From: Cellulomonas sp. NS3
Lineage (GTDB): Bacteria > Actinomycetota > Actinomycetes > Actinomycetales > Cellulomonadaceae
DNA: 64,000 nucleotides
NCBI RefSeq assembly: GCF_024757985.1
Contig: NZ_CP103289.1
Coordinates: 3,038,001 to 3,102,000, forward strand
Direction of reading: 5' to 3'
Shown here: positions 53,254 to 57,980 of the stretch, piece by piece
How the letters are laid out: each line of letters opens with the position of its first letter
Numbering within the stretch: position 1 is the stretch's first letter
Position numbers and translations under genes: made by a program
Notes under the pieces: generated by a model
Seen by the model: only the letters and a program-made list of their open reading frames with translations
What the model was told of the DNA's origin: nothing
Databases searched by the model: none

Positions 53254-53937
53254 GTGCGCGGACGGACGTGGGTGCGGGTGCTCGATGCGGTGCTGCGCGC
53301 CGTGACGTCCGGCGGCGGTCCTGGGGCGTCCGGGAGCGGGTCCGGCCGGGGCGGCACGTCCGGCTCCGCGACGCAGCCCCCGGCCCGGCGCGCTCCGCTC
53401 CGGCGGACCCGCACCACCGCGGACCGTCCGGCAGCGGACCGGGGCACCGCAGCCCGCGGCGGCGGGGACGCCGGCCGCGGCGCCCAGCCCGCGCCGGCCC
53501 CTCGGTCGGGTCGCGAACGGTCCGCGGCGCGGCCCGAGGGCGACTACACCGGCGTCGTCCGCCCCCAGTACTCCCCCGACCCCGACGGCCGCGCCGACCC
53601 GGGCGAGATCGTGTGGACGTGGGTCCCCTACGAGGACGACCCGTCGCAGGGCAAGGACCGCCCCGTGCTCCTCGTCGGGCGCGACGGGCCGGACCTCCTC
53701 GGGCTCATGCTCACGAGCAAGGACCACTCGCGCGACGCGGCCGACGAGGCGCGCTGGGGTCGGGTGTGGCTCGACATCGGTGCGGGCGACTGGGACTCCC
53801 GGCGCCGCCCGAGCGAGGTCCGCCTCGACCGCGTGCTCCGCGTCGACCCGGACGCGGTGCGCCGGGAGGGCGCCGTGATGCAGCGCGCACAGTTCGACCG
53901 GGTCACGGGCTCGCTCGCGGAGCACCACGGCTGGTAA
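53254..53937 (+). CDS. PemK/MazF-fold protein with long disordered N-terminus
   Basis: 227 residues. Residues 1-95 are a basic Gly/Ser/Arg/Pro-rich low-complexity stretch. The C-terminal 130 residues form a PemK-like domain: PGEIVWTWVPYEDDPSQGKDRPVLLVG, the central LLGLMLTSKDHSRD, and the end VLRREGAVM-like DAVRREGAVMQRAQFDRVT. MazF/PemK toxins are ribosome-independent mRNA interferases. No antitoxin gene flanks it: the neighbours are the ATP-grasp operon and rpsT. It may therefore be a domesticated orphan rather than an addiction module. The GTG start follows a TAGGGT -10. Its TAA stop overlaps the putative rpsT -10 (TAAGAT). Confidence 0.82.
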   Translation: MRGRTWVRVLDAVLRAVTSGGGPGASGSGSGRGGTSGSATQPPARRAPLRRTRTTADRPAADRGTAARGGGDAGRGAQPAPAPRSGRERSAARPEGDYTGVVRPQYSPDPDGRADPGEIVWTWVPYEDDPSQGKDRPVLLVGRDGPDLLGLMLTSKDHSRDAADEARWGRVWLDIGAGDWDSRRRPSEVRLDRVLRVDPDAVRREGAVMQRAQFDRVTGSLAEHHGW

Positions 53938-54520: not shown

Positions 54521-55849
54521 TCAGCCAGCTGCGGCGGTCCATGCCTCCCGCAGCGTCGCCGGGACCGTGGGTCGGAAACCTGCCTCGCGCAGTGCGCGGT
54601 CGAACGCGTGCGCGGCGCCGGCCACGTCCCCGTGGCCGAGGAAGCGGTCGCCGAGCTCGCGCCACGCCGCTGCCGACTGCCGGGTCGCGGACATCATGCC
54701 GAGCATGTCCGCCGCCCAGCGGTACGCCCGCGCCGCGCCGGCGACGTCCTCCCGGGCGTGCAGCGCGTCACCGAGCGCGAGCTGGGCGACCGCGGTCTCG
54801 AGACGCGGCTGGTCGCCGAGCCGTCGCAGCGCCTCACGGGCGCTGGCCTCGGCGACGTCGAGGTCACCGAGCACGAGGTGCGCGCGCGAGCGCTCCACGT
54901 CGACGCGCGAGAGCTCGATCTCGGAGCCGATCACGAGCAGGTCGGGCAGCGCACGGTCGAGCTGGCGCAGCGCCTCGTGCGGCTCGGCCGGCTCGCTGCG
55001 CAGGAGCAGCCACGCGTAGTTGAGCCGCAGGCGCGGGAGGTCACGACCGAGCTCGCCCTCGCCCAGCAGCGCGAGCGCGCGCTCGGTGTACCGCTGCGCG
55101 AGCGGGTAGTCGCGGCGCTGCTCGGCGACGAGCGCGGCGTTCCAGTACACGCTGCCCCGTCCGCGCGGGCTGCCGAGCGCCTCTGCCTGGCGGACCAGCT
55201 CCGCGGCGCGGTGCGTCGCGTACAGGAGGTCACCGCGCTCGACGTAGGCCCACAGGACCGTCGACGCCAGGCGCAGGTGCTCGTCGGTGCCGGACATGCC
55301 GCCGGCCTCGAGCTCGTTCAGGATGCGCTCGCCGACCTCGACCGCGCGGTGCATGTCGCCGCCCTCGAGGTACGAGGCGACGAGCCCGGTCGCGATGGCC
55401 GCGGAGTCGAGGTTGTGCGACCGGGCACGGGCGTCGTCGAGCAGCGGCTCGAGGATGGCCACCGCGGACTCGAGGTCACCGAGGGCCTCGTGCGCGCGCG
55501 CCAGGGTCATGAGCGCCTCGACGCGGACGGCGTTCGTCACGCTGGTGAGGTCGATCGCGGAGATGCGCGTCCGGGCGCCCGCGGGCTCGCCGGCGCTGAG
55601 GTCCAGCTTCGCGTAGTCGATCTCGAGCCGGGCGCGGGCCTCGTTGGGGCCGTCGTCGCCGTGCTTGAGGTACTCGACCGTCGACCCCAGCCGCTGCGCG
55701 AGCACGGTGAGCGCGGAGTCCGTGGGCTCACGACGCCCGGCCTCGATCAGCGAGATGTAGCTGGGCGAGAAGGAGTCGCCCGCGAGGGCGGTCTGGGAGA
55801 GCCCCGCAGCGAGCCGCGCCTGCCGGACCCGGTCAGCGATCGTCGTCAT
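54521..55849 (-). CDS. XRE-family regulator with TPR-like C-terminal domain
   Basis: 442 residues. An N-terminal HTH_3 domain (IADRVRQARLAAGLSQTALAG, SPSYISLIEAGRREPTDSAL) is followed by about 360 residues of helical repeats of TPR character (VEALMTLARAHEALGDLESAVAIL, LARAHEAL-type units, YPLAQRYTERALALLGEGEL, DVAEASAREALRRLGDQ, AAWRELGDRFLGHGDVAGAAHAFDRAL). This two-part design is that of RRNPP-type regulators, whose TPR domains bind short secreted peptides, and also of other TPR regulators. ATG at 55849 lies eight bases after TACAGT, and a 17-base imperfect palindrome overlaps that hexamer. A 46-residue secreted peptide gene lies immediately upstream on the same strand. Confidence 0.9.
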   Translation of the reverse strand: MTTIADRVRQARLAAGLSQTALAGDSFSPSYISLIEAGRREPTDSALTVLAQRLGSTVEYLKHGDDGPNEARARLEIDYAKLDLSAGEPAGARTRISAIDLTSVTNAVRVEALMTLARAHEALGDLESAVAILEPLLDDARARSHNLDSAAIATGLVASYLEGGDMHRAVEVGERILNELEAGGMSGTDEHLRLASTVLWAYVERGDLLYATHRAAELVRQAEALGSPRGRGSVYWNAALVAEQRRDYPLAQRYTERALALLGEGELGRDLPRLRLNYAWLLLRSEPAEPHEALRQLDRALPDLLVIGSEIELSRVDVERSRAHLVLGDLDVAEASAREALRRLGDQPRLETAVAQLALGDALHAREDVAGAARAYRWAADMLGMMSATRQSAAAWRELGDRFLGHGDVAGAAHAFDRALREAGFRPTVPATLREAWTAAAG

Positions 55850-55854
55850 AGTCG

Positions 55855-55871
55855 GTCACTGTACCTGTGAC
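55855..55871 (-). promoter_or_regulatory. Imperfect palindrome over the -10 of the XRE gene
   Basis: On plus the site reads GTCACTGTACCTGTGAC: 5-base perfect arms GTCAC and GTGAC around a 7-base centre. It contains the complement of TACAGT (55858-55863), the likely -10. The position suits an autoregulatory operator. Confidence 0.45.
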
Positions 55872-55915
55872 GACCCGGAATTACCGCCCCTGACAGCGGG
55901 CGAATTTCCGACCAC

Positions 55916-55947
55916 GTGGTAGCGGACGATGGGGCGCCCGCTACCAC
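55916..55947 (-). terminator. Terminator of the small peptide gene
   Basis: GTGGTAGCGG (55916-55925) and CCGCTACCAC (55938-55947) form a perfect 10-base stem with a 12-base loop. It is 40 bases past the stop of the peptide gene and ahead of the XRE promoter, so the peptide is probably transcribed as its own unit. Confidence 0.65.
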
Positions 55948-55986
55948 GCCGGTCGCTGGCTCAGCCGGCGAGACGGCGTGAGCTGC

Positions 55987-56127
55987 TCAGTTCATGTTCA
56001 TGCGGCAGCAGCCCGTGGCACCGCCGGACATGAGGCTCACCTCGGAGGCGTGCGCGGACGCCGCGGCGGAGAAGGAGAGCGCGGCGGCGAGGGCGAGGGC
56101 GGCGACGGCCTTGAGCGAAGACGACAT
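55987..56127 (-). CDS. Small secreted peptide precursor (46 residues)
   Basis: A typical Sec signal: MSSSLKA, a hydrophobic core AVAALALAAALSF, and an AxA site near SAHA. Cleavage would release roughly a 19-residue product beginning SEVSLMSGG and ending GCCRMNMN. The mature part has two adjacent Cys, two Gly-rich turns and a Met/Asn tail. ATG at 56127 has an excellent ribosome site, AGGAG seven bases upstream, which strongly supports real translation despite the small size. It sits directly upstream of the XRE-TPR regulator gene, the arrangement expected of a signalling peptide and its receptor, but it could equally be a bacteriocin-like or wall-associated peptide. No family is recognised. 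Confidence 0.75.
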   Translation of the reverse strand: MSSSLKAVAALALAAALSFSAAASAHASEVSLMSGGATGCCRMNMN

Positions 56128-56160: not shown

Positions 56161-56345
56161 GTCACGTCTATCATGACCGATCCCGAGCGCCGAGTCGCCC
56201 CTTTCACAGGGCTCTGGCACAGCTCCGCCCAATCGAGTGACCCGCCCGAATCGGGCAGCGCGGATTCCCCGGCGTCGTCGCAGTTCAGCCGATCGGAGGA
56301 GTGTCAAGTCAGGGATGGTTATGGTGTCATAGTTGTCATGACCGG
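56161..56345. repeat. Direct repeat ending in TCATGACCG flanking the EAL-gene leader
   Basis: GTCACGTCTATCATGACCGA (56161-56180) and GTCATAGTTGTCATGACCGG (56326-56345) match at 13 of 20 positions, including a 9-base identical core TCATGACCG. The second copy spans the EAL gene start codon; the first lies in the peptide gene's upstream region. It may be an operator pair or a duplicated start region. Confidence 0.35.
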
Positions 56346-57078
56346 AGACAAGGACGCACTGGCGGCACAGCTCGCCGCCGCGGTGGACGACGCGATCTCC
56401 GACAGCGCGCGGCACGACTGGGCGCAGCACCTCGCTCGCGAGCGCGTGCTCGTCGGGCGGCAGGGGATCTTCTCGCCGCGCCTGCGGCCCTTCGCCTACC
56501 AGCTCTCGTTCCGCCCGCCGGGCACCGGCGGCCAGCCCGCGCCGCACCACGCCACCTGGACCGAGCTGCAGCACGAGCGCGCGACCGCGCACGTCCTGCG
56601 GGCGACCTTCGGCCGCGCGGACCTCGAGCAGGTCGCCCACGGTCGCTGGATGTTCGTGCGCTTCCCGCGCGCCTACCTCGTCCAGGACCTGCCCGTGCCG
56701 GCCCGTCCCGACCGACTCGTCATCGAGATCGCGGACAACGTCGAGGTCGACACGGAGGTCATCGCGGGCGTGCGGCGGCTGCGCGAGCGCGGGTTCCGCG
56801 TCGCCATCCCCGGCTTCGTCAGCCGGCCGGGGCAGCGCCGGCTGCTCCCCCACACCGACTTCGTGAAGATCGACGTGCGCGACCTCGACGTCGAGGGACG
56901 CCCGGTCGTCGAGCTCGCCCGGTCGTACGGCGCGCTCCTCGTCGCCGAGTACATCGAGCACCCCTGGATGCTGCACCAGAGCCGTGACCTCGGGTTCGAC
57001 CTCTTCCAGGGGAACCTGCTCGAGCCGTCGGCCACCCTGGACCGCTCCGCGGCTCGGCTGCTCCGCCCCGTCGGCTGA
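56338..57078 (+). CDS. Degenerate EAL-domain protein
   Basis: 246 residues. The layout follows YuxH-type EAL domains (VLVGRQGIFSPRLRPFAYQLSF, then VIEIADNVEVD, FRVAIPGFVSRPGQ, DFVKIDVRDL, ALLVAEYIEHPW, FQGNLLEPS). The signature EAL/ELL is replaced by YQLSF, the catalytic Asp pair by IPGF and the Asn position by FVRF, so hydrolysis of c-di-GMP is unlikely; ligand sensing or protein binding is more plausible. ATG at 56338 is chosen over the in-frame ATG at 56173 because the sequence between is AT-richer and not protein-like. It is divergent from the secreted peptide gene and followed by a related EAL gene. Confidence 0.75.
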   Translation: MTGDKDALAAQLAAAVDDAISDSARHDWAQHLARERVLVGRQGIFSPRLRPFAYQLSFRPPGTGGQPAPHHATWTELQHERATAHVLRATFGRADLEQVAHGRWMFVRFPRAYLVQDLPVPARPDRLVIEIADNVEVDTEVIAGVRRLRERGFRVAIPGFVSRPGQRRLLPHTDFVKIDVRDLDVEGRPVVELARSYGALLVAEYIEHPWMLHQSRDLGFDLFQGNLLEPSATLDRSAARLLRPVG

Positions 57079-57188: not shown

Positions 57189-57980
57189 ATGTGCGCGCTC
57201 TCATCCGGTGTGACCCTCGCAGCGCCCGCCGCCGTCCCCCGTTCGCACCGGCGGCGGCACGCCCCGGCAGAGCGCAGCGGCCCCACGGGTCCTGACGACG
57301 CCGTCGCCGCCGTCGGTCGGCGCATCCCGGTCGGGAGGCAGCCCATCACGGACCCGGACGGGACGCCGCGGGCCTACGAGTTCCTGTACCGGTCGCTCGC
57401 ATCCGAGCGCGTCGGCGTGGACCGGTGGGCCGCCGCGCAGCAGGACGTCGCGACGGGCGCCGTGCTCCACTCGGTCTTCGCCGACCGCGGCGTCGGGATC
57501 GCTGCCGCCGGCTGCCCCGCCTTCGTCAACGTGACCCGGTCCTACCTCGTCGGCGCGCTCCCGCTGCCCGCGGACCCGGCCCGGCTCGTCCTGGAGGTCG
57601 TCGAGTCGGTGCAGGTCGACGCCGAGGTGCTTGCCGGCGTCGCCCGGCTCCGGGCCGCCGGGTTCCGGATCGCCGTCGACGACTTCGTCGCCCTGCCCGA
57701 CCAGCTGCGCCTGCTGCCCTTCGCCGACTTCGTCAAGATCGACCACCGCGACCTCGTGCGCCACGGGAGGCCGCTCCTCGAGCTCGCGTCCCGGTTCGGC
57801 GCCCGCCTCGTCGCCGAGCACCTCGAGACCACCGAGGCGCTCGACGCCTGCGTCACGGCGGGCTTCACCCTCCTCCAGGGCGACGTGCTCGCCCCGACGG
57901 TGGTGCTGCCCGGCGCGGAGCCCGCTCCGGTGGGACCGAGCGCGGCCGCGCCCGCGCTCGCGTCAGCGCGAGCCCGCTGA
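57189..57980 (+). CDS. EAL-domain protein of YuxH type lacking an HDOD partner domain
   Basis: 263 residues. After about 45 residues of Arg/Ala/Pro-rich sequence, the domain begins RIPVGRQPITDPDGTPRAYEFL. Most catalytic positions are kept: Glu in YEFLYR, Asn in FVNVTRSYL, Glu in LEVVESVQVD, Asp pair in VDDFVAL, Lys in VKIDHRDL, Glu in AEHLET and Gln in LLQGDVLAP. YuxH-like proteins normally carry a C-terminal HDOD domain, which is missing here. Homology to the preceding degenerate copy suggests duplication with one copy losing catalysis. ATG at 57189 or the nearby GTG at 57210 could start it. Its last 18 bases overlap the convergent holA end. Confidence 0.8.
   Translation: MCALSSGVTLAAPAAVPRSHRRRHAPAERSGPTGPDDAVAAVGRRIPVGRQPITDPDGTPRAYEFLYRSLASERVGVDRWAAAQQDVATGAVLHSVFADRGVGIAAAGCPAFVNVTRSYLVGALPLPADPARLVLEVVESVQVDAEVLAGVARLRAAGFRIAVDDFVALPDQLRLLPFADFVKIDHRDLVRHGRPLLELASRFGARLVAEHLETTEALDACVTAGFTLLQGDVLAPTVVLPGAEPAPVGPSAAAPALASARAR

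Follow-up and report, generated by a model that had tools for sequence, protein, structure and literature searches.

The window, a stretch of 64,000 nucleotides from Cellulomonas sp. NS3, carries an island, bounded by holA and rpsT, that consists of a regulator gene, a peptide gene and two genes for EAL-domain proteins (Table 1). In the order of minus-strand transcription, a 46-codon peptide gene is followed, after a gap of 137 bp, by a 442-codon regulator gene. The first-pass annotation had described a tiny gene with a ribosome site and a signal peptide upstream of an HTH-TPR regulator, and this description holds: the coordinates of both genes match, an AGGAG ribosome site precedes the peptide gene, and the export signal, judged by eye, comprises a hydrophobic core and an A-x-A site (A-H-A followed by SEVSLMSGGATGCCRMNMN). 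A PemK/MazF-like toxin domain (Pfam PF02452, E 1.3e-8) is encoded nearby on the plus strand at window positions 53254..53937.

Table 1. Features of the holA-rpsT island, in window coordinates
Feature	Position	Strand	Remarks
46-aa propeptide gene	55987..56127	-	ATG 56127, stop 55987; signal-peptide-like start; C-terminal part SEVSLMSGGATGCCRMNMN predicted mature
XRE-type HTH + TPR regulator, 442 aa, predicted peptide receptor	54521..55849	-	ATG 55849, stop 54521; Pfam HTH_31, HTH_3, TPR_2, TPR_12
Operator-like GTCACAGGTACAGTGAC, regulator promoter	55855..55871	-	Overlaps -10-like TACAGT; probably leaderless start
Operator-like GTCATGATAGACGTGAC, peptide promoter	56161..56177	-	GTCA-N9-TGAC pattern, 37/53 loci
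Operator-like GTCATAGTTGTCATGAC, start of divergent EAL gene	56326..56342	+	Best operator model R1 match in the window's genome
Stable RNA hairpin between peptide and regulator genes	55909..55955	-	Possible terminator or processing site
First short EAL-domain protein, divergent from peptide gene	56338..57078	+	Pfam PF00563; start codon assumed
Second short EAL-domain protein	57189..57980	+	Pfam PF00563

A scan of genome contigs with the regulator returned at least 56 loci, namely 52 close relatives (L031-L082, titled nearly all as Cellulomonas or Actinotalea) and four from Streptomycetaceae. All 52 close relatives carry, upstream on the same strand, an ORF of 41-48 residues with a Cys-Cys pair 2-5 residues from its end. 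Together with the window's peptide these make 53 sequences, every one of which contains exactly two Cys, and 49 of which contain GCC[KR]; the core reads GGA[T/S]GCC[R/K], in the window GGATGCCR. When the 53 peptides are anchored on the Cys pair, the pair is invariant, G at positions -4 and -1 and R/K after the pair are each conserved to 96%, and most other positions drift. One Cys-Cys lies near the C-terminus in all 53 aligned peptides. Any weight on the Met/Asn tail first noted is not supported, as among the listed peptides only those of the window and its near relative L133 end in this way. The dN/dS ratio is below 1 in 51 of 51 close peptide pairs (median 0.31; the pairs share sequences and are not independent), and these substitution patterns show that purifying selection acts on the peptide gene. 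The window's peptide has no Pfam or PADLOC match, and its NCBIfam matches are weak and below cut-offs.

The peptide gene accompanies the regulator with great regularity. After merging of duplicates, it lies upstream on the same strand in all 87 distinct orthologous regulators sampled. Among 897 control blocks, six hold any Cys-Cys-terminal ORF preceded by a ribosome site and none holds one with GxGCC[KR]; the stricter ribosome-site filter used for the controls is passed by the peptides of 49 of the 53 loci, the window included, and misses the peptide in L215, the same gene as L080, where the peptide is present. With the two-flank filter, a Cys-Cys peptide occurs in none of 149 control blocks, which came from the window and L031-L082 loci only. 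Because the same type of ORF stands in the same place in 52/52 relatives, against 0/897 control blocks with GxGCC[KR], the pairing is more than chance.

The regulator contains HTH_31/HTH_3 at residues 5-61 and several TPR families including TPR_2 and TPR_12 (Pfam). An AlphaFold model built from 18 aligned sequences (mean pLDDT 90, pTM 0.78) is all-helical, with an HTH followed by a predicted TPR superhelix. Foldseek matches it to the PlcR-PapR-DNA complex (3u3w, E 7e-7) and to Rap-CSF (4gyo, E 1e-5), which are listed alongside generic TPR proteins; VIA places it close to Rap-pheromone (Z 21.9), NprR (Z 21.1) and NprR-NprX (Z 19.9), and the top VIA rank goes to the unrelated eukaryotic LGN (Z 25), which counts against a specific likeness, TPR superhelices being generic. 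A profile search of the PDB gave PlcR (2.5e-5, residues 3-183) and ComR (2e-5), both below generic TPR proteins among the best 60 of 108 matches. The predicted fold therefore fits a peptide receptor and is not proof of one; the fold alone is unspecific.

The island contains three operator-like sites of the form GTCA-N9-TGAC. This 17-bp pattern lies 21-25 bp before the regulator start in 48/53 loci and, where an EAL gene is present, no more than 60 bp from the EAL start in 42 of 49 loci; upstream of the peptide gene it is exact in only 37/53 loci, which counts against the signalling reading. All 48 regulator operators enclose a TAnnnT hexamer, and the gap between its end and the start codon is 7-8 nt in 47 cases and 11 nt in one; the position of the hexamer within the operator and so close to the start codon suggests a leaderless transcript that would be repressed by covering of the -10. 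Near the regulator, arm spacings other than 9 nt are nearly absent except for 13-14, 18-19, 22 and 28-29 nt, and at the peptide promoter the others are found mainly at 8 nt (12 matches) and at 30 nt (23 matches); these extra spacings may reflect an additional GTCA or TGAC arm next to the operator. Scans of the window locus for sigma-70 promoters and terminators found nothing. The terminator first annotated between the two genes is not supported as a canonical one: the hairpin there is strong (z = -4.5 for a 111-nt stretch) and lacks a U tract; runs of at least 11 pairs occur at this intergenic position in 11 of the 15 loci folded.

The reach of such an operator was estimated by genome-wide matching. 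Bare GTCA-N9-TGAC occurs 102 times per strand genome-wide, compared with 19 times for the reversed control, and is too loose for a regulon search; GTCAYNNT-N5-TGAC gives 15 forward and 11 reverse matches against one and one in the control, most of them GC-rich in the spacer. Operator model R1 is weak, with about 20 bits of information in total. Its top hit falls at this locus in all four genomes scanned, and in the window's genome its best match outside the locus has E 0.61. In G081 and G055 the regulator site itself (E 2.54 and 1.64) falls below other matches (E 1.03 to 1.39), and in none of the four genomes did the model recover the peptide-promoter site at E <= 10, which counts against the signalling reading. 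Together these matches suggest that the regulon is probably, not surely, local.

The divergent EAL gene, with an operator at its start, is a probable output gene. At L073 the EAL gene stands 1.5 kb further off, behind an inserted second regulator, and the operator is still kept. EAL genes are absent from the three Actinotalea-type loci examined (L077, L079 and L080). Many Actinotalea-type loci (L163, L205-L222) have a second operator about 140-180 bp upstream of the peptide operator; this second site has no clear target gene, which counts against the signalling reading. A fixed 165-bp loop between the distal and the peptide operators was considered and is ruled out by a spacing that ranges from about 140 to 203 bp. 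Catalytic EAL phosphodiesterases of c-di-GMP are recognized by the Glu of the EAL motif together with the DDF motif. The window's copy of the first EAL protein has lost both (YQL and PGF stand in their place) and so lacks the catalytic motifs, the Glu being kept in some other species; the window's copy of the second EAL protein keeps the motif residues.

Beyond the orthologs, the regulator belongs to a wider family. In a sample of the window's own family, a regulator at E <= 1e-30 is present in 80/200 genomes and 4/25 genera. Profile searches matched 17 of 297 genomes in the order (11 of the 17 belong to families other than the window's), 20 of 396 in a sample of the phylum (including the window's own and two of family f21) and 54 of 150 in f21. 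We take f21 to be Streptomycetaceae, since the Kitasatospora peptides of L083, L086 and L085 recur at L267-L269. Matches of fewer than 330 model positions and sequence duplicates are omitted from the counts of loci below; loci with less than 400 bp on both sides could also be excluded, and none was dropped. A Cys-Cys peptide belonging to the regulator itself was sought within 900 bp on both flanks with one filter.

The linkage recurs in these distant groups in rearranged form. In other families of the order, a Cys-Cys peptide adjoins 11 of 15 regulators, ten times divergent upstream and once on the same strand, with tails that include GPGPVCCAG, GPLGCCTC and PATCCTKG. Among Cellulomonadaceae paralogs it is found in 15 of 20, always downstream and with PCCK tails, and 7 of the 15 have a tandem pair; L177 and L189 were scored negative, as the nearby peptide belongs to the neighbouring ortholog. 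Streptomycetaceae and plasmid loci, counted without the Cellulomonadaceae fragment L162, have it in 13 of 22, eight times divergent upstream (tails such as GAGGCC, PPECC and DFPACC) and five times downstream (DIPLCC or DFPACC). The search for co-conserved pairs that the first-pass annotation proposed has thus found linkage both in orthologs and in distant relatives.

Some genomes hold more than one member of the family. At L180-L199, second regulators have one or two downstream PCCK-type peptide genes in 15 cases, and this paralog with its PCCK peptides would be a channel separate from the window's pair; five paralog loci (L183, L188, L190, L197 and L199) have GTCA-N9-TGAC about 70 bp upstream. 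L175 (genome G344) holds two adjoining regulators, and a different divergent Cys-Cys peptide goes with each; the two tails (LGCCTC and ATCCSPNIN) are unlike, which is what separate channels would lead one to expect. In G279, four family matches stand in a row (L169, L176, L178 and L179), some of them fragmentary and with short flanks, and a Cys-Cys peptide lies near one only.

The linkage has limits, which count against the signalling reading. No own Cys-Cys peptide was found within 900 bp in 9/22 Streptomycetaceae and plasmid loci (two of the nine are cut at the locus start), in 5/20 paralogs and in 4/15 loci of other families of the order; at L170 such a peptide is present with its pair too far from the end for the filter. 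Cys-Cys peptides occur in none of 14 low-score Streptomycetaceae loci and in one of 17 loci from other classes, which likewise counts against it. In the other classes a differing, divergent, signal-peptide-like ORF was seen by eye in 10/18 loci, with tails such as GFPWPK, GYPWPK, NWPHH and NWPKH, and in 6/14 low-score Streptomycetaceae loci the divergent short ORFs have in common, again by eye, AANAGP or a similar stretch. Divergent signal-peptide-like ORFs of 28-32 residues occur at L241-L247, L249, L255 and L259 of the other classes, ending in GFPWPK, NWPHH or APWPHCC. No peptide was found beside the relatives L273-L277, L194, L195, L264 and L265. The question raised at the outset, whether homologues of the regulator lack a neighbouring peptide gene, is therefore answered in two parts: all distinct orthologs sampled have it, and two distant groups are mostly without the Cys-Cys type.

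Among mobile elements, the phage collection yielded one partial regulator match with no small secreted ORF upstream, and viral contigs yielded two short HTH matches. The regulator matches 31 plasmid records, of which three were examined and one has a downstream Cys-Cys peptide; one of the 31 is labelled Exiguobacterium, a Firmicute.

The strongest argument for an RRNPP-like reading is that peptide and regulator stay linked in three or more gene orders and in several families, even as the peptide retains hardly anything beyond its Cys pair. On the strength of the counts (87/87 in orthologs; 11/15, 15/20 and 13/22 in distant groups), the initial idea of a peptide-signalling pair comparable to RRNPP holds as the best reading, resting on co-conservation and rearranged linkage. 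Judging from sequence comparison and the structural model, we consider it probable that a secreted and re-imported Cys-Cys pheromone controls its own locus and an EAL output. The 46-aa protein would be exported by Sec and cleaved after A-H-A by signal peptidase, possibly with later trimming. The product, a short peptide from the C-terminus with GGATGCCR as its core, would accumulate outside the cell. An oligopeptide permease would re-import it (the genome holds three oligopeptide-binding proteins of the SBP_bac_5 type, not specific to peptide re-import), and the peptide would bind the TPR superhelix on its concave side. The regulator, most simply a repressor, would occupy GTCA-N9-TGAC at its own -10-like hexamer, at the peptide promoter and at the EAL start; binding of the peptide would relieve repression, a direction of control that would give positive feedback and switch on the EAL proteins, with a possible c-di-GMP output.

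An unlikely alternative is that the regulator senses some other ligand (a metabolite or a partner protein) and that the Cys-Cys peptide is one of its target products, for example an extracellular metal or redox buffer. The operator common to the regulator and peptide promoters in 37/53 loci would suit a target gene, and vicinal cysteines are able to coordinate metal or to pair as a disulphide; a buffer is, however, hard to reconcile with a single Cys pair in 53/53 peptides and little else conserved, or with distant regulators accompanied by Cys-free short secreted ORFs with tails GFPWPK or NWPHH, and a gene that is only a target would not have to stay linked to the regulator through three or more gene orders, as the peptide gene does. 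Still less plausible, in our judgement, is a peptide that acts within the producing cell or at its membrane, as an export or envelope-stress monitor or in a leader-like manner, and carries no signal between cells: extracellular accumulation is itself a prediction and the search of four genomes brought out no additional operator sites (a weak test), yet the listed peptides have a signal-like sequence, and their conserved part is the C-terminus, which would be exported. An antimicrobial or ribosomally made natural product whose production the regulator controls is highly improbable, since its short precursor, signal-like start and Cys, and the frequent occurrence of regulators in natural-product clusters, are set against a mature part of only about 15-20 residues with one Cys pair and against an island in which neither a modification enzyme nor a dedicated exporter nor an immunity gene was recognized.

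The pheromone reading has its closest parallels in the RRNPP/RRNPPA systems (PlcR-PapR, NprR-NprX, Rgg-SHP and AimR-AimP): these share an N-terminal HTH with a TPR superhelix and an adjoining short propeptide gene whose C-terminus is the conserved part, export being predicted from the sequence in our case, and the predicted fold of the window's regulator matches PlcR, NprR and Rap. It differs from them in its Cys-Cys core, its variable gene order and its EAL genes as probable output; the sequence similarity of the regulator to theirs is marginal overall, and the system belongs to Actinomycetota, not Firmicutes. RRNPP systems are reported from Firmicutes, in genera that with one exception belong to Bacilli, and cytoplasmic peptide receptors are likewise described from Firmicutes (PMC9765709). 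The close relatives of the window's pair are Cellulomonas and other Actinomycetota, outside that distribution. We therefore call the pair RRNPP-like and do not file it as an RRNPP member, because it comes from another phylum, because the sequence matches are too marginal to establish descent from the known subfamilies, and because binding and import are predictions.

Two kinds of regulatory system in the same phylum invite comparison. NsdA and RamB are actinobacterial regulators with HTH and/or TPR-like parts, and the scores of the window's regulator against them are weak and well under the curated thresholds (NsdA 14.5 bits of 75, RamB 17.3 of 700); we know of no peptide partner for regulators of this type. 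The gamma-butyrolactone systems of Actinobacteria likewise serve cell-density signalling, and differ in using small enzyme-made molecules and other receptors rather than gene-encoded peptides; actinobacterial quorum sensing is described mainly through such small enzyme-made molecules (PMC10075063, PMC4748050). No account of actinobacterial HTH-TPR/propeptide pairs was found in the open-access literature searched.

We advance more tentatively, and hold somewhat short of an even chance, the broader proposal of a phylum-wide pheromone family in Actinomycetota, in which HTH-TPR receptors would be paired with interchangeable C-terminal signals: a Cys-Cys class, gated by disulphide, metal or dimer state, in Cellulomonas, other families of the order and Kitasatospora/Streptomyces, and sister classes of the Trp-Pro or AANAGP type in other lineages. 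If so widespread a peptide-receptor family exists, Cellulomonas, which are cellulose degraders, and Streptomyces/Kitasatospora, which are antibiotic producers, would possess a gene-encoded signalling channel open to switching by synthetic peptides. The invariance of the Cys pair poses the question of redox- or metal-gated signals.
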